From: Nitrospirota bacterium
Lineage (GTDB): Bacteria; Nitrospirota; Thermodesulfovibrionia; Thermodesulfovibrionales; Magnetobacteriaceae
NCBI GenBank assembly: GCA_015233015.1
Contig: JADFYO010000020.1
Span: forward strand, 1 to 55,306
DNA length: 55,306 bases
Direction: 5' to 3'
In this document: positions 3,525 to 10,894 of the stretch, piece by piece
Layout of the letters: each line of letters starts with the position of its first letter
Position numbering within the stretch: position 1 is the first letter of the stretch
Notes under the pieces: model-generated
Databases searched by the model: none
Seen by the model: only the letters and a program-made list of their open reading frames with translations
Told to the model about the DNA's origin: nothing
Translations under genes and position numbers: made by a program

Positions 3525-4136
3525 TTGAAAAGGATAATAGTAATTGATGACCAGTGGGATATGGACTCTCCCGTGCTCAAGTACGCGCTAAAGGCATCGA
3601 AAGCGGCCGACACTGAAATAATAGGCATTTTGCCGGTCAGGGGCGCGACGCAATCTACTAAGCTGCAGAGGCAGCTTAACGCTGCCGGACAAAAACTCGC
3701 CTCAGAAGGCGTAAGCTTTAGTTCCTACATCGTGGGTACGGAACGGGAGGAATTCATAAGCAGGATTAAGGGTCTTACTCCGGCAAGCCTTGTACTAGTA
3801 GGCGACACTGTTTTCAGTGGATTATTGAAAGGCACGATAACTATCGAGACATTGAAAAAAGAAATATCCTGTCCGGTAACAACTGCCCGTGCCCTGGATT
3901 CAGCCCCGAAAAAAATCGGCAAGGGCATAAATCTTATCAGCTTCATCGCCTATGCCATGGGGTCGATAATAATATATGGCGTTTTTTTTCCAAAAATTAT
4001 AACGCTTAACGCGAAGTTGTTTATGTCAATGACAGTCCAGGGGGCTATCGCCGTCATGGCCGTAGTTGTCGTTCATGCGTGGGTATGGGGAAATACGGTA
4101 CATGTCTTACCTAAAATGTTCAGACTTGAGAAATAA
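3525..4136 (+). CDS. Universal-stress-protein-like domain with two C-terminal membrane helices
   Basis: The 203-residue protein starts at a TTG at 3525, five bases after a strong AAGGAGGT; the ATG at 3520 in another frame stops immediately, so the TTG is favoured. Residues 1-125 have the alternating strand/helix layout of UspA (RIIVIDDQWD at the N-terminus, SLVLVGDTVFSGLLKGTITIE, then EISCPVTTA). The usual G-x2-G-x9-G(S/T) nucleotide loop is only partly recognisable. Residues about 133-190 form two hydrophobic segments, which would anchor the domain to the inner membrane. Membrane-tethered Usp domains are less common than soluble ones. It sits directly upstream of the TauE/SafE permease gene, so regulating or accompanying that transporter is a plausible inference. 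Confidence 0.7.
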   Translation: MKRIIVIDDQWDMDSPVLKYALKASKAADTEIIGILPVRGATQSTKLQRQLNAAGQKLASEGVSFSSYIVGTEREEFISRIKGLTPASLVLVGDTVFSGLLKGTITIETLKKEISCPVTTARALDSAPKKIGKGINLISFIAYAMGSIIIYGVFFPKIITLNAKLFMSMTVQGAIAVMAVVVVHAWVWGNTVHVLPKMFRLEK

Positions 4137-4177: not shown

Positions 4178-5266
4178 ATGGTGGATACACAGATAGCAGA
4201 GAGTGTGAATATAATGACGAATATCTTCGACATGCATCCATGGTACATGCTTGGTTTGGTAGTGCTTGGTTTCATTGGCGGGACAATCTCAGGCTTTATA
4301 GGCTCCGGAGGGGCATTCCTGATGACCCCGGGTATGATGAATCTGGGTGTGCCTGGCGTTATCGCGGTTTCAAGCAATATTGCCCATAAGTTTGGAAAGG
4401 CCATGATGGGCTCAAAAAAACACAGCGAGATGGGTAATGTCGATAAAAAACTTGGGTTTTTTTTACTCATTACGGCGGCAATCGGAATAAGTCTCGCAGT
4501 TTTTGTTAACAAGTACTTCTATGATAAATTAGGGAAAGACGGCTCAGACCTATACGTAAGTTTGTTTTTCGTTATCGTACTCAGTATAATCGGCTCGTTC
4601 ATGCTAAAAGACGCCCTGAGGTCAAAGAGAGAACCAGGCTCAGGACCTTCTGACAAGCTATTAAAAATATCCAGGAAATTTCAGCTCAAGCCGATAATAC
4701 ATTTTAAGACTGCCAAAGTGGACATATCCCTTGCCGCCCTTCTTGTAGTAGGATTAGCCACCGGATATATGGCGGGGACAATCGGCGTCGGAGGGTTTAT
4801 CGGCGTACCGGCGATGATTTACCTGTTCGGGGTTCCAACTGCCATAGCCGCAGGGACTGAACTTTTCCTGGCTGTGTTCACAGGGGGATGGGGTACATTT
4901 AATTATGCCCTTCATGGTTATGTCGATTTAAGAGTAGTGCTTTTGCTCTACGTTGGCTCTTTACCGGGAATATACTTAGGTGCGGTAGGTACAAAAGTTG
5001 TAAAAGAACTATATATCAGAATGGTGACGGCAGTGCTGATTCTCCTGTGTGTAGTGTCGAGATTATTTGCCATCCCCGTCAACTGCAAAAATTTAAATCT
5101 TGTAGATATGAGTAAGGACACAATCGCGATATTTGAGATGGGCAGCAAGATATTTCTCTTTGGGAGCGGACTTGTTGCCACGTTTTTAATTCTCTACTGG
5201 ACATTCAGGGCAAAGGCCAGAGAGAAAAGGCCGGTCGAAGTCAGTTATTCCGGCAGTGTGGAATAA
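4178..5266 (+). CDS. TauE/SafE family sulfite/organic anion permease
   Basis: An inner-membrane transporter of 362 residues. It has the two repeated halves typical of TauE/SafE: an N-terminal GFIGGTISGFIGSGGAFL repeat (residues 28-48) followed by SSNIAHKFGKA, and an internal copy GLATGYMAGTIGVGGFIG near 190-210 followed by the TELFLAVFTGGWGTFNY segment. About eight hydrophobic helices alternate with a charged cytoplasmic loop around residues 145-180 (RSKREPGSG). A good ribosome binding site (CAGGAGGAATTATAAG) precedes the ATG. The family exports or imports sulfite, sulfoacetate and other C1-C3 anions; the substrate cannot be read from sequence. In this operon it may act together with the downstream receiver and PEP-synthase-like proteins. 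Confidence 0.9.
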   Translation: MVDTQIAESVNIMTNIFDMHPWYMLGLVVLGFIGGTISGFIGSGGAFLMTPGMMNLGVPGVIAVSSNIAHKFGKAMMGSKKHSEMGNVDKKLGFFLLITAAIGISLAVFVNKYFYDKLGKDGSDLYVSLFFVIVLSIIGSFMLKDALRSKREPGSGPSDKLLKISRKFQLKPIIHFKTAKVDISLAALLVVGLATGYMAGTIGVGGFIGVPAMIYLFGVPTAIAAGTELFLAVFTGGWGTFNYALHGYVDLRVVLLLYVGSLPGIYLGAVGTKVVKELYIRMVTAVLILLCVVSRLFAIPVNCKNLNLVDMSKDTIAIFEMGSKIFLFGSGLVATFLILYWTFRAKAREKRPVEVSYSGSVE

Positions 5267-5288: not shown

Positions 5289-5699
5289 ATGATGGAAAGA
5301 AAGTGCCGTTTGATGGTAGTTGACGACGAGACGATTGTGTGCAAGCGCCTCAAACAGATTATGGAAAAGGCCGGTTATGAAGTGGCTGTCTTTGGCGACG
5401 GAGCGGAGGCCATAGAGGTGATGGGCAGGACAACGTTCGATATTATCGTAACAGATATGAGAATGGACGGCATGGAGGATGGGATGAGGCTGCTTGAGGC
5501 GGCAAGAGAAAAAAATCCTGCGGCGAAGGTTATTATCCTCACCGGGTTTGCCGAGACTGAAATGGTCAGAGAGGCATTTAGAAAAGGGGTATTCGACGTC
5601 ATCTCCAAGCCCGTTGAAATCGATAGTATCAAACGGGTGATTGGCAGGGCCGAAAAGGAACTTAACGCGTCAAGACGCGAGGCGTTTGCCCAAGTGTGA
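5289..5699 (+). CDS. Single-domain response regulator (CheY-like)
   Basis: The 136-residue product is a stand-alone receiver domain. It has the acidic pair in MVVDDETIVC, the phospho-acceptor Asp in IIVTDMRMDGMEDGM, the conserved Thr in IILTGFAE and the Lys in DVISKPVEID. There is no output domain, so it presumably acts through protein-protein contact. The start may be the first or second of two adjacent ATG codons (5289 or 5292), both downstream of AAAGGAG. It lies 22 bases after the permease gene and 27 bases before the first PEP-synthase-like gene, in one operon. No histidine kinase lies in the same operon; the NarX-class kinase at 932-2422 is the nearest candidate. The link is inference. 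Confidence 0.92.
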   Translation: MMERKCRLMVVDDETIVCKRLKQIMEKAGYEVAVFGDGAEAIEVMGRTTFDIIVTDMRMDGMEDGMRLLEAAREKNPAAKVIILTGFAETEMVREAFRKGVFDVISKPVEIDSIKRVIGRAEKELNASRREAFAQV

Positions 5700-5726: not shown

Positions 5727-8312
5727 ATGACTAAAGTTATGCAGAAACTCTTCGGGGCCTTTTCTACTAAAAAGGAGCCGGCTCATGACGAAGTAAGACT
5801 GTCTGACGTCAGACTGTCTCTGAGGGTTGTATATAACCGTTTCCGGCAGATGTTAAACAGCAACAACCATGCCCTCGAGATTATGGCCGACATGGGGAAT
5901 AAACTTGGCGGGAATTATATCTTCGATATTAACTATATAAAGAAGTCCTATTCCGAGTTCTCAGATACATTGTTCCAATCCATCTACAACTTAAACGCCC
6001 TTTCAGAAAACAAATATTTATACCTTCACAGGGTATTCGAAAGGATTAATACCCAGGTTAACGGGATACTCCAGGATAAACCACCGATGGATGTAAAAGA
6101 AACGGTCATGTTTTACAGAAATATCACATGGGAAATGGCGGATGAGGTCGGAGGAAAAAACGCAGCCCTCGCAGAAATCGGAAACTACCTTAAACTTAAC
6201 ATTCCTGACGGCTTCGCGATAACCGCGGGTGCGTTCAGGGAGTTTATCGAATATAACCATATAGATGAAAAGATTGAATCTCTGAGGAAACAATATGTAT
6301 CTGACGATATGGGCATAGGCAGCGATTTCTTCTTGAGGGCGCAGCAAATCGTCAGAAACGGCACAGTTCCTGAGCATATGATGGAAGCCCTTGACAATGC
6401 CCTTACGCAAATGAATTGCGGTAACGGCAAGGCCAGCTTTCTGGCCGTACGCAGCAGCGCTGAGAAGGAGGACGGGGAGTTTTCCTTTGCCGGACAGTTT
6501 TCCACAGTGCTGAACGTGCCCGCCGAAATAACAAGTCTTACAGAGGCATATAAACAGGTACTGGCAAGTCTGTATCGTCCTGAGGCGTTTCAGAAACAAG
6601 ACCACGCCGCCGCTGTAATGGCTATGAGCGTTGGATGTGTCAGAATGGTTTTCTCCCGTGTAAGCGGAGTAATGTATTCAATGGACCCAAACGACATCGA
6701 CAGAGATGTGATTATTATAAGCGCAAACTGGGGGCTTGGCACAACAGTCGCAGAAGGTACCGTCGATGCGGATGTTTATGTTGTAGAGAAGAGAGATCCT
6801 TACAATATTATAGAAAGAAAAATCGGTAAAAAAGCAGTGATGGATGTAAACGATAATGCAGGAGGAACAGTAGTAACCGTATCCGTGTCTGAAGCAGACA
6901 GAAAGATTCAGTGCCTCAGCGATGCTCAAATAAAAGACCTCGCGCGCCACGCCGGGATTATCGAACATTACTTTAAAAAGCCCCAGGACATAGAATGGTC
7001 TTTCAACGACAAGGGGGAATTGTTCTTTTTGCAGTCGAGACCGCTTAAAATCTCCCGCAAGCCGGAGAAATCAGCTAAGGACATGCTTTTTTCATCCAGC
7101 CTCCCAAAATATCAGGTCATCATGGAAAGGCAGGGGATTATCGCGTGCCGCGGCATTGGGGCGGGCAAGGTATTTCACCTGAAACGTATGGAAGACCTCA
7201 AGGAATTCAAATGCGGCTCCGTGCTCGTGGCCAAACACGACTCTTCCCAGTTCATAAAGGTAATGCCAAAGGCCGCGGCAATAATTACAGAGACAGGGAC
7301 TCCTACAAGCCATATGGCAAACATCGCGCGCGAGTTCCGTGTGCCGACTATTGTGAATGCAGGCATGGCTGTCAATATGCTCCAAGACGGTGATGAGATT
7401 ACCGTTGACGCCGACGACAACAAGGTGTATGCCGGGACTGTTAAAGAGCTTCTCAGGTATAACATTACAGAGGATATTAATCTGGCTGAGGAGAAGGAAT
7501 TCAGGATTTTGAAGAAAATACTGAGATATATGGCCCCTCTGAACCTTACAGACCCGGGCAGCTTTACTGCCGAGGCTTGCCAGACTTTTCATGACATTCT
7601 CAGGTTTATACATGAAAAGGGCATAGAAGAGCTGACCACAAATACAGGCCGTTACAAGGAAATCCTGCGAGACAGCGCCGCCGTGAGGCTTGACGTCCCC
7701 ATACCGGTAGATATATGTGTAATAGACATCGGCGGCGGACTAATAAACGGCAAGGCCGCGCCTGACCATATTTCCTCTATTCCTTTTAAGGCAATAGTAG
7801 AGGGTATGAGCCACCCCGGCATATGGCACTCGCATGCGGATTCTATTGCCATACCGGCTACGCCAAGAAGGCGCGGAATCGCTGCTTTATGTTATCATGG
7901 AGATAATGTTGCGGTGGTTTCACATGAATATGTTAATCTTACTATGAGGTTGGGGAATAATTTTAATATGCTGGATTGTTACTGCGGCGAAAATATAGAG
8001 GACAACCATGTCTATTTCAGATTTAGCGGGGCAGTGCCTGATTATATGCCGGTGCCTGTAAAAAATTCAGGCAGAGGCGGGCTTATTGCGGCAATATTGA
8101 GAGAGTTAGACATGAGAGTTGACACAAAGGGCGGGCTAGTCATCGCCCGTGCCGACAATATTTCCCGCATGGAGATGGAAGTGCTGCTTAACTATTTAGG
8201 CCGATTGGCCGCCTGCGCCCCCCAATTCGACGCCGTCGAGTGTAATGAACAGACAATAAGGCACTATGCTACAAACTTCCTCGAAGGAAAATACGATTTA
8301 AAAGAAGCATGA
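5727..8312 (+). CDS. PEP/pyruvate-binding domain protein 1, without PEP-synthase barrel
   Basis: The 861-residue protein has the catalytic parts of the PEP synthase/dikinase superfamily. Residues about 1-115 are a helical N-terminal domain with no match I recognise. Residues 130-440 form the ATP-grasp-like PEP/pyruvate-binding domain: GGKNAALAEIG near 143, AVRSSAEKEDGEFSFAGQF at 240-258, and DIEWSFNDKG then LQSRPL at 421-440. The phosphohistidine swivel domain is at about 465-575, with H529 in TGTPTSHMANIARE as the expected phospho-carrier. The large PEP/pyruvate TIM barrel expected next is absent. About 280 residues of an unfamiliar domain replace it, including VDICVIDIGGG and SIPFKAIVEGM. 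This layout recalls rifampin phosphotransferase-type enzymes, but the acceptor is unknown. The stop overlaps the start of the next gene by four bases (ATGA). Confidence 0.85.
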   Translation: MTKVMQKLFGAFSTKKEPAHDEVRLSDVRLSLRVVYNRFRQMLNSNNHALEIMADMGNKLGGNYIFDINYIKKSYSEFSDTLFQSIYNLNALSENKYLYLHRVFERINTQVNGILQDKPPMDVKETVMFYRNITWEMADEVGGKNAALAEIGNYLKLNIPDGFAITAGAFREFIEYNHIDEKIESLRKQYVSDDMGIGSDFFLRAQQIVRNGTVPEHMMEALDNALTQMNCGNGKASFLAVRSSAEKEDGEFSFAGQFSTVLNVPAEITSLTEAYKQVLASLYRPEAFQKQDHAAAVMAMSVGCVRMVFSRVSGVMYSMDPNDIDRDVIIISANWGLGTTVAEGTVDADVYVVEKRDPYNIIERKIGKKAVMDVNDNAGGTVVTVSVSEADRKIQCLSDAQIKDLARHAGIIEHYFKKPQDIEWSFNDKGELFFLQSRPLKISRKPEKSAKDMLFSSSLPKYQVIMERQGIIACRGIGAGKVFHLKRMEDLKEFKCGSVLVAKHDSSQFIKVMPKAAAIITETGTPTSHMANIAREFRVPTIVNAGMAVNMLQDGDEITVDADDNKVYAGTVKELLRYNITEDINLAEEKEFRILKKILRYMAPLNLTDPGSFTAEACQTFHDILRFIHEKGIEELTTNTGRYKEILRDSAAVRLDVPIPVDICVIDIGGGLINGKAAPDHISSIPFKAIVEGMSHPGIWHSHADSIAIPATPRRRGIAALCYHGDNVAVVSHEYVNLTMRLGNNFNMLDCYCGENIEDNHVYFRFSGAVPDYMPVPVKNSGRGGLIAAILRELDMRVDTKGGLVIARADNISRMEMEVLLNYLGRLAACAPQFDAVECNEQTIRHYATNFLEGKYDLKEA

Positions 8313-10894
8313 GATTTGGGTATCTTATCGGCAAGGCCAAATCGTTACTTCAGAAGTTCAGCAATAATAATGAGGATTTCCCGGACGAGCTTCTTATCCC
8401 TGACGACGACTATCTGGTTCTCAGGAGCAGGTACTATAGTTATAAAGATTTGCTTCTGAAAAACAACGAGCTTCTAAACACCCTTTCGATAATAGAAGAG
8501 GAAATAGAAAAAAAAACTATAACTATACCCGCCCTAAAATCATACATGGCAAGGATTTTTAGCACCTCCTTCAGTTTCATACAGAGTTTGAACGATATGA
8601 CAGATAAGCGTTATATGTTTCTCTTTGGGATACTTGAGCAAATCAGGGAAAATACCACGGCAATTGTCGATGAGAAGGGCGGGCTGCCGTCAAGCGGGTT
8701 TGTTATGCCTATCGATAAAATAACCGCGAAGGATATAAGAGATACCGGCGGCAAGGCCGCAAACCTTGGAGAGATTCATAACGTACTTTATTTGCCCACC
8801 CCACGGGGGTTTTCAATAATGGTGCCGGCGTATAAAGAGTTCATGTCTGTTAATGGTCTCAATCGAAAGATAGACGCTCTGCTGGCCCCTCTTTCCATGG
8901 ATTCCTATGATGGAATTGATTCGGCGGCGGAGGAGATAGAGCAGCTGATTATGGGTTCTGATGTGCCTGCTGAGATAGTGGACCAGATTATGGCCGGTAT
9001 AATGAAGATAGGCGGCGATAAGAGGTTTTCAGTCAGGTCGAGCGCTGTAGGTGAAGATGGGAGGGTCTCATTTGCCGGACAGTTTAAGAGCATATTGAAT
9101 GTTCAGGCAGATGCCGTTATAGACGCATATAAACAGGTCATCGCGAGCAAGTATGGAAAGACGGCGTTGTTTTACCGCCTTGCGAAGAATATCAGGGATA
9201 AGGATATGCCGATGGCCGCATTGGTGCTGGAAATGGTTAACTCCCGCTCTGCCGGTGTGCTTTATACGCTGAACCCCGGCAGTCCCGATAAAGACGAGGC
9301 CATTTTGAGTTCGATATGGGGACAGGGCAGATATGCCGTCGATGGAACAATCACCCCGGACACATATATTTTAGACCGCAAGCAAGACGGCACAATAATC
9401 AGTAAGAGCATCTCCAATAAAAATATAGAGCTGGTGTTGGACGAGGGCGGCAGTGTAAAAGAGGTTGCAGTCCCCGAGAACTTACGTACAATCCCAACGC
9501 TTTCAGAAGACGAAATTGAAATGTTGTACGATTTCGGCTGCATGATAGAAAGACACTTTCAAACGCCTCAGGACATAGAATGGGCTATCGACGGAAAGGG
9601 CAGGGCGGTTATACTTCAGGCTCGTCCGTTGCAAACGAAGAGGGTTATCTCTGCGGCATATCAGCAGGCAGCGCCTCCGGTAAAGAATTGTTTGGCAGAG
9701 GGTGAGGCGGCAAGCCACGGTGTTGCGTACGGGCCGGTATATTTTATTGACAGGTTTGAACAGCTTACGGCATTTCCCAAAGGAGCGGTGGCAGCGGCCA
9801 GAAATTCCTCGAATGACTATGTAAGGCTGATGTCCCTGGCCTCGGCCCTCGTAATAGAAACCGGAAGCAGGACAAGCCACCTTGCCACAGTAGCGCGGGA
9901 GTTCGGCATCCCTATGGTGATAAACGTCAAAGACATAAAAGATAAGTTCAGAAATATCGGGGCTGTAACTGTCGATGGCAATACGGGGCGTATCTATGAG
10001 GGACGTGTCGGCAGACAGACCCTCATCGCTCCTGAGAGGGTTATCCCGGAGGAGTATTTTCAATCGGCGGCCATTATCAAGACTGTCATGAGCAATATTA
10101 CGCATCTCAATCTGGCCACAATAAGCGAGGCGGGGGTCTCTGCCGGGGACATTCGGACTGTCCACGATATAATCAGATTTGTACATGAGATATCGGTTAA
10201 GGAGATGTTCCGCATCGGGAAGCTGGCAGAAAGCGGCAGTTCTACCCAGATACTCGTATCGGAACGCGTGCCGTTGCAGTTCTATGTTATAGACCTTGAC
10301 GGCGGGATTGTTGACGAGGCTAAGTTTCTGAAACGGTTATCCATAGGGCGTATATGTTCTGTACCGTTTAACGCGTTATGGCGCGGCATGGCCCATGAAG
10401 GCGTCTGCTGGTCAGGGGCGGTGGCTATCGATATAGGTGGGCTGGCCTCGGTAATGGCGCGTTCATTTGTGAATACCGGCGTCTCGGAAAAAGGTGGAAA
10501 GGTCTATGTCATCATAACTGACAGCTATGTTAATTTCAGCGTTAAGCTGGCGTACCACTACTCTATAATAGACGCGTTTTGCGGTGAGAGCTATATCAAC
10601 AATTACATTAACTTTCGTTTTAACGGCGGAGGGGCCGGCATCGATGGAAGAACAAGGCGCGCCCTGTTTATCAAGGAAGTAACAGAGGCTTATGGGTTTA
10701 AAGTTGAAGTAAAGGGTGACCTTGTGATAGCCGTGCTTAATGGGGCTTCAAAAGTGGAGACAGAGGAAAAACTCGAAATGCTTGGACGGCTGCTCGGCTG
10801 CTCCCGTCAGCTTGACATGGCGATAAGCAGCCTTGAGGCAAAGGACTGGTATGTGAAGGCCTTTCTGGAAGGGAATTACTCATTTGCCGTATGA
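8309..10894 (+). CDS. PEP/pyruvate-binding domain protein 2, paralogue of its neighbour
   Basis: The product is 861 residues, the same length as the upstream paralogue and with the same domain order, so this is a tandem duplication that has since diverged. The ATP-binding domain (about 135-440) shows TGGKAANLGEIH, SVRSSAVGEDGRVSFAGQF and DIEWAIDGKG with LQARPL. The swivel domain carries H524 in TGSRTSHLATVAREFG. The C-terminal 280 residues again lack the PEP-synthase barrel and match the neighbour's C-terminal domain (FYVIDLDGGIVDEAKF, SVPFNALWRGM, VNFSVKLAYHYSIIDAF). The start codon lies inside the stop of the previous gene, implying translational coupling and possibly a heteromeric complex. 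The phosphorylated substrate is not predictable. Confidence 0.85.
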   Translation: MRFGYLIGKAKSLLQKFSNNNEDFPDELLIPDDDYLVLRSRYYSYKDLLLKNNELLNTLSIIEEEIEKKTITIPALKSYMARIFSTSFSFIQSLNDMTDKRYMFLFGILEQIRENTTAIVDEKGGLPSSGFVMPIDKITAKDIRDTGGKAANLGEIHNVLYLPTPRGFSIMVPAYKEFMSVNGLNRKIDALLAPLSMDSYDGIDSAAEEIEQLIMGSDVPAEIVDQIMAGIMKIGGDKRFSVRSSAVGEDGRVSFAGQFKSILNVQADAVIDAYKQVIASKYGKTALFYRLAKNIRDKDMPMAALVLEMVNSRSAGVLYTLNPGSPDKDEAILSSIWGQGRYAVDGTITPDTYILDRKQDGTIISKSISNKNIELVLDEGGSVKEVAVPENLRTIPTLSEDEIEMLYDFGCMIERHFQTPQDIEWAIDGKGRAVILQARPLQTKRVISAAYQQAAPPVKNCLAEGEAASHGVAYGPVYFIDRFEQLTAFPKGAVAAARNSSNDYVRLMSLASALVIETGSRTSHLATVAREFGIPMVINVKDIKDKFRNIGAVTVDGNTGRIYEGRVGRQTLIAPERVIPEEYFQSAAIIKTVMSNITHLNLATISEAGVSAGDIRTVHDIIRFVHEISVKEMFRIGKLAESGSSTQILVSERVPLQFYVIDLDGGIVDEAKFLKRLSIGRICSVPFNALWRGMAHEGVCWSGAVAIDIGGLASVMARSFVNTGVSEKGGKVYVIITDSYVNFSVKLAYHYSIIDAFCGESYINNYINFRFNGGGAGIDGRTRRALFIKEVTEAYGFKVEVKGDLVIAVLNGASKVETEEKLEMLGRLLGCSRQLDMAISSLEAKDWYVKAFLEGNYSFAV

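Follow-up and report, generated by a model that had tools for sequence, protein, structure and literature searches.

Tandem dikinase-like proteins with an unrecognised C-terminal domain in place of the PEP-synthase barrel, encoded among permease and two-component genes

Phosphorylation of a histidine by ATP, with release of AMP and phosphate, is established chemistry for PEP synthase and for rifampin phosphotransferase (RPH) (PMC4844700), and dikinases with exchanged acceptor domains are already known. The nearest analogue described so far of the proteins analysed here is VadK, a barrel-less relative of PPDK that autophosphorylates on its swivel histidine and reportedly regulates metabolism (PMC12636432, preprint). 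Regarding genomic setting, a D. vulgaris cluster of sensor, regulator, Usp and sulfate-exporter-like genes responds to molybdate and was described without such a dikinase gene (PMC10102598); by analogy, this case shows solely that sensor-permease-Usp clusters can matter for oxyanions.

We analysed a stretch of 55,306 nucleotides from a Nitrospirota bacterium (hereafter the window), in which two genes on the + strand, P1 (5727-8312) and P2 (8309-10894), each encode a protein of 861 amino acids. An earlier note made from the sequence had described them as a translationally coupled tandem pair of PEP-synthase-like proteins carrying an ATP-grasp-like domain and a swivel domain with its histidine (H529, H524), and the open reading frames and Pfam matches agree with this description. 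The stop codon of P1 and the start codon of P2 share the bases ATGA (4-base overlap), and the two proteins are 31% identical across the 805 columns of their pairwise alignment, in which H529 of P1 corresponds to H524 of P2. P1 consists of an unrecognised N-terminus (residues 1 to ~125), a PPDK_N ATP-binding domain (139-450, E-value 7e-79), a PEP-utilizers swivel domain (496-563, containing H529, E-value 2e-19) and an unrecognised C-terminal domain (~586-861). The architecture of P2 is the same, with PPDK_N at 146-445 (2e-84), the swivel with H524 at 489-560 (4e-18) and then the C-terminal domain. The ATP-binding domain and the swivel with its catalytic histidine are of the PEP-synthase type. 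The helical N-terminal domain of the earlier note stands as an unrecognised region, the profile search of these ~120 residues giving weak coiled-coil-like matches at best (E-value 0.08); its helical character is that note's own reading. The best sequence relatives in the PDB were PEP synthases (2ols, 8a8e), with alignments limited to the ATP-binding and swivel part, where the GGKNA, VRSSA, DIEW, LQxRP and swivel-histidine motifs aligned between P1/P2 and the solved enzymes.

The pair follows a run of same-strand genes, with gaps of 68, 41, 22 and 27 bases. The run starts with a cytidylate-kinase-like protein (PF13189, 2644-3456, +), whose P-loop appears degenerate by reading (NRAQYSMGKAVA) and whose relatives occur in 7 of 76 family loci. 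It continues with a 203-aa protein with a membrane-like C-terminus (3525-4136, +), a TauE/SafE-family permease (4178-5266, +, Pfam E-value 2.8e-38) and a stand-alone CheY-like receiver (5289-5699, +, Pfam E-value 2e-27), which has no output domain and retains the DD/D/T/K residues by reading. The permease and receiver had been named as operon members in the earlier note. Its "Usp-like" label for the 203-aa protein is left unproven by Pfam, which returned no match of any kind; homologues of this protein are found at L038, L040 and L058, and genuine Usp genes adjoin some relatives of P1 and P2. Divergent to the operon lie a membrane sensor histidine kinase of the HisKA_3 type (932-2422, -) and its partner, a NarL/LuxR-type response regulator (316-978, -), both recognised by Pfam. 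This divergent arrangement is repeated in the related loci L058 and L049, and the sensor kinase likely regulates the operon. A promoter scan gave many matches, all weak.

To place P1 and P2 among described dikinases, their scores were compared with the cut-offs of curated families. The PEP-synthase models gave 321 and 328 bits against a cut-off of 740 (TIGR01418, under half) and 337 and 338 bits against 598 (NF005057, just above half), and covered only residues ~124-588. Other models were also far from their cut-offs, namely rifampin phosphotransferase (NF041857, 185 and 200 bits versus 999, in which the swivel would be C-terminal and not central as here), the short PPDK-like family (NF004531, 73.7 and 55.1 versus 456) and PTS enzyme I (TIGR01417, 28.5 and 24.6 versus 341.7). 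Beyond residue ~563, Pfam returned no credible domain in either protein, and PEP-utilizers_C, the PEP-synthase barrel, was absent at E-value ≤1. The architecture is therefore VadK-like in Pfam terms, combining ATP-binding and swivel histidine domains with no PEP barrel. Because the barrel is absent and the scores lie far under the PEP-synthase cut-offs, P1 and P2 are most probably not PEP synthases. PADLOC had no match for P1 or P2 and only generic matches for the receiver, so that a defence-system identity was set aside. A mobile origin was likewise rejected, no place in a plasmid collection covering 80% of P1 and the matches listed being mostly ordinary ppsA.

The C-terminal domain is encoded at 7482-8309 (+) in P1, where it carries the motif HDILRFIHE (H622, D623, R626, H629, E630), and at 10049-10891 (+) in P2. 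Searches with these ~280 residues against Pfam and the PDB gave no match, whether with the single sequence or with profiles of 35 or 88 sequences, and there was no NCBIfam or PHROGs match by sequence. AlphaFold2 models of the two C-termini (pLDDT 77 for P1 and 83 for P2) both contained helices and consecutive strands without the alternation of eight beta-alpha units of a TIM barrel, and the domain is accordingly predicted to be an alpha/beta sheet domain and not a TIM barrel. With Foldseek, the best E-values for the two models were 0.013 and 0.039, none significant, and with VIA the best Z-scores were 6.8 and 5.8 (red chlorophyll catabolite reductase, coproporphyrinogen oxidase and T4 MotA). 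We claim no fold for the domain, since these scores fall where unrelated folds score; possibly it is a known fold overlooked by these searches. A likeness to YbjN/secretion chaperones, weak in the first model, not prominent in the second and below significance, was discarded.

Conservation was counted over the 94 near-full-length family members of the tree. Identical in all 94 were K144, R242, E248, D249, E413, E423, Q436 and R438 of the ATP site, H529, R535 and E536 of the swivel, and H622, D623, R626 and H629 of the C-terminal domain, whose core reads HDxxRFxHE. The final glutamate of this core, E630, is kept in 90 of 94 members, and N760, R783 and D835 are nearly constant. As ATP-site, swivel and C-terminal residues barely vary, both halves of the protein are under strong constraint. 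H745 is substituted solely in P1 of the window (to N) and in L038, L039 and L058. All C-terminal conserved residues are present in P2 with the exception of one variable position (W700C). The C-terminal site is thus partly altered in P1 of the window's group, and the two proteins probably act as an unequal pair, with a complete site in P2 and one without H745 in P1. Members of ~1060-1090 aa at L055:7797-10985 and L061:8553-11750 have a C-terminal extension that is weakly lectin-like (PF21708, under the cut-off).

The spread of the family was surveyed with a profile of the C-terminal domain in Nitrospirota and in the Desulfovibrio-related phylum of L008 (Solidesulfovibrio). The profile matched 38 of 148 Nitrospirota genomes and 89 of 247 genomes of the L008 phylum, with a maximum of 10 copies per genome, and the P1 C-terminus was matched in 43 of the 60 closest relatives. 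The majority of matches lay within frames of 830-1090 aa, and the C-terminal domain therefore travels with the dikinase; shorter frames were also present and look like contig ends. In a FastTree tree, every P2-lineage gene adjoined a P1-lineage gene (11/11, in both groups), including the pairs L126, L127 and L139 of the L008 phylum (a receiver intervenes in L126 and L127), and P1-lineage genes were found alone too. Since the P2 lineage is always paired in both groups, the pair is either older than the lineage split or was transferred jointly. The window's genome contains a third family gene, apparently split over two contig ends (G000:C84:1-2378 and G000:C89:1-318), with CBS, SLC13 and TauE genes alongside.

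One set of profiles was then applied to the neighbourhoods of 76 family loci and, as a control, to 40 windows of 20 kb placed arbitrarily in those genomes. TauE genes were found at 49/76 loci versus 1/40 random windows, SLC13 at 19/76 versus 0/40, CitMHS at 9/76 versus 0/40 and any of these permeases at 58/76 versus 1/40, the other 18 loci having none within about 10 kb. Receivers, often immediately adjacent, were present at 60/76 loci versus 4/40, histidine kinases at 57/76 versus 11/40, and permease and two-component genes together at 53/76 versus 1/40. The significance of these enrichments is optimistic because the neighbour profiles were seeded from family loci, the loci are kin by descent and well-assembled top matches were preferred. 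An independent Pfam count found 2-10 TauE genes per genome, so that a 20-kb window would hold one at most about 5% of the time, in agreement with the random-window control. Further neighbours were Usp (27/76), CBS (18/76), Alph_Pro_TM (16/76) and MshEN (7/76), and no catabolic genes were recurrent. A ~237-aa membrane protein without a Pfam match stands alongside TauE at 24/76 loci (L054:5107-5820, L133:6871-7620). Seven of the 76 loci contain an LCIB-type carbonic anhydrase together with SLC13, CitMHS, CBS and GntR genes (L070:15279-15992), suggesting a variant of the cluster for bicarbonate or carboxylates.

A 27-aa element with the consensus FEDxMSAVAFAEAGExxTAxEI was shared between small stand-alone proteins, one receiver and three family members. 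It forms the end of the receiver adjoining the family gene in L065 (11275-11724), lies at residues 190-216 of P1 in L040, within the ATP domain, and at residues 635-661 and 642-668 of the L070 and L072 members, within the C-terminal domain; the sites recorded are L040:1529-2026, L042:123-620, L070:3066-3536, L065:11275-11724 and G000:C121:13348-13425. Sub-threshold Pfam matches make it look TPR-like. Across ten genomes, 12 of 15 stand-alone copies had a TauE gene no more than 1.5 kb away (0.13 expected), and the element was present in 39 of 60 relatives and in 11 of 118 genomes of the L008 phylum. None of the genes in the window carries the element. These occurrences hint that the receiver, the TauE-linked proteins and the dikinase may have a common partner, to which the element is the best pointer.

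We propose, with a probability of roughly 60%, that P1 and P2 belong to a large family of ATP-dependent phosphohistidine dikinases which descend from the PEP-synthase lineage, have had their acceptor domain replaced and have been recruited to permease and two-component clusters. Judging from the intact residues and known relatives, the ATP-grasp half would phosphorylate the swivel histidine (H529 or H524), yielding AMP and phosphate, in keeping with the autophosphorylation of barrel-less VadK (PMC12636432). The swivel would then pass the phosphate to the C-terminal domain instead of a pyruvate-binding barrel, and the HDxxRFxHE domain would hold or bind the putative acceptor. The family would be a regulatory part of anion-permease clusters (TauE/SafE, at times SLC13 or CitMHS) with a sensor kinase and a receiver, and a plausible output, offered as a proposal, would be phosphorylation or nucleotide-dependent gating of a partner in the permease complex according to ATP/AMP status. 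The link of the receiver to the family is one of genomic association, from which phosphate exchange does not follow. A wider formulation, in which the dikinase with its new acceptor domain, the receiver and the 27-aa element as a docking element together control TauE/SLC13 permeases as a widespread signalling system, and so amount, after two-component systems and the PTS, to a third type of phosphohistidine relay, is speculative and we consider it doubtful.

Of the other explanations, the strongest, which we nevertheless hold unlikely, is a metabolic kinase. An organic or inorganic anion would be imported, bound by the C-terminal domain and phosphorylated, much as the drug is by rifampin phosphotransferase. 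The domain could indeed bind a small metabolite instead of a protein partner, given that it is rich in invariant polar residues, that permease genes are present at 58 of 76 loci and that such dikinases have been called a large, unexplored group (PMC4844700). However, the C-terminal core is constant while the permease type differs (TauE, SLC13, CitMHS), receivers and histidine kinases equal permeases in frequency, and recurrent catabolic neighbours are absent; with up to ten paralogues per genome alongside sensors, receivers and varied anion permeases, a regulatory role is no less strongly indicated than that of a substrate-using enzyme. Less probable again is a sensor of adenylate charge with no phosphotransfer output, in which the dikinase half would read ATP/AMP and the C-terminus would dock a protein and gate the permease or receiver. 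Usp and CBS modules bind adenine nucleotides and are frequent neighbours, and the first C-terminal model had its weak chaperone-like resemblance, but that likeness is under significance, and the swivel histidine, invariant in 94/94 members, would be dispensable in a pure sensor. Very improbable is a true PEP synthase with a remodelled PEP-binding barrel, for although the ATP and swivel domains are clearly PEP-synthase kin, no gene of the window's genome reaches a PEP-synthase cut-off and Desulfotignum genes, two with consecutive locus numbers, are labelled pyruvate water dikinase (PMC4046663, by annotation alone), the barrel match is absent, both PEP-synthase scores fall far short, the predicted C-terminal fold is not one of eight beta-alpha units, the family reaches 10 copies in a genome and PEP might instead come from a PPDK-like gene at C88.

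Returning to the dikinase with a replaced acceptor domain, the earlier note had proposed a dedicated phosphotransfer system, with duplicated genes and a ~280-residue C-terminal replacement of the barrel. This interpretation is partly supported: the non-PEP-synthase identity, the unrecognised domain, the ancient tandem pair and the permease/receiver association all have support, the profile and structure searches recovering no known barrel variant, whereas a phosphotransfer system acting on a small-molecule substrate stays conjectural. A literature search, itself incomplete, found no paper describing the family or gene set, and what is new here, and apparently undescribed, is the unrecognised, putative acceptor domain with its strong permease and two-component context. 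Since the ATP and swivel domains invite the label, hundreds of genes of sulfur-cycle bacteria risk annotation as PEP synthase or pyruvate water dikinase although the PEP-making part is absent. If these proteins are regulators of anion uptake, this would explain the ten copies reached in some genomes and offer a route to studying anion transport tied to energy state in sulfur-cycle bacteria.

Compared with known systems, P1 and P2 share with PEP synthase (TIGR01418) the ATP-binding and swivel domains, their order and the catalytic histidine, but have unrecognised N- and C-terminal domains and no PEP-utilizers_C barrel, score under the family cut-off and sit among permease and two-component genes. 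PTS enzyme I has in common with them the swivel histidine domain; they lie far under its cut-off and no PEP-binding barrel domain was detected in them. RPH and the PigC/RedH ligases combine the same dikinase chemistry with an acceptor domain of another kind, but P1 and P2 score 185-217 bits against cut-offs of 999-1350, and the order in RPH is ATP, acceptor, swivel (PMC4844700) whereas here it is ATP, swivel, unrecognised domain. VadK (Rv1127c), set beside P1 and P2 by description, resembles them in its barrel-less ATP-binding and swivel histidine domains and differs in its size (~50 kDa), in having no large C-terminal domain, in its phylum and in its origin, described as PPDK and not PEP synthase.
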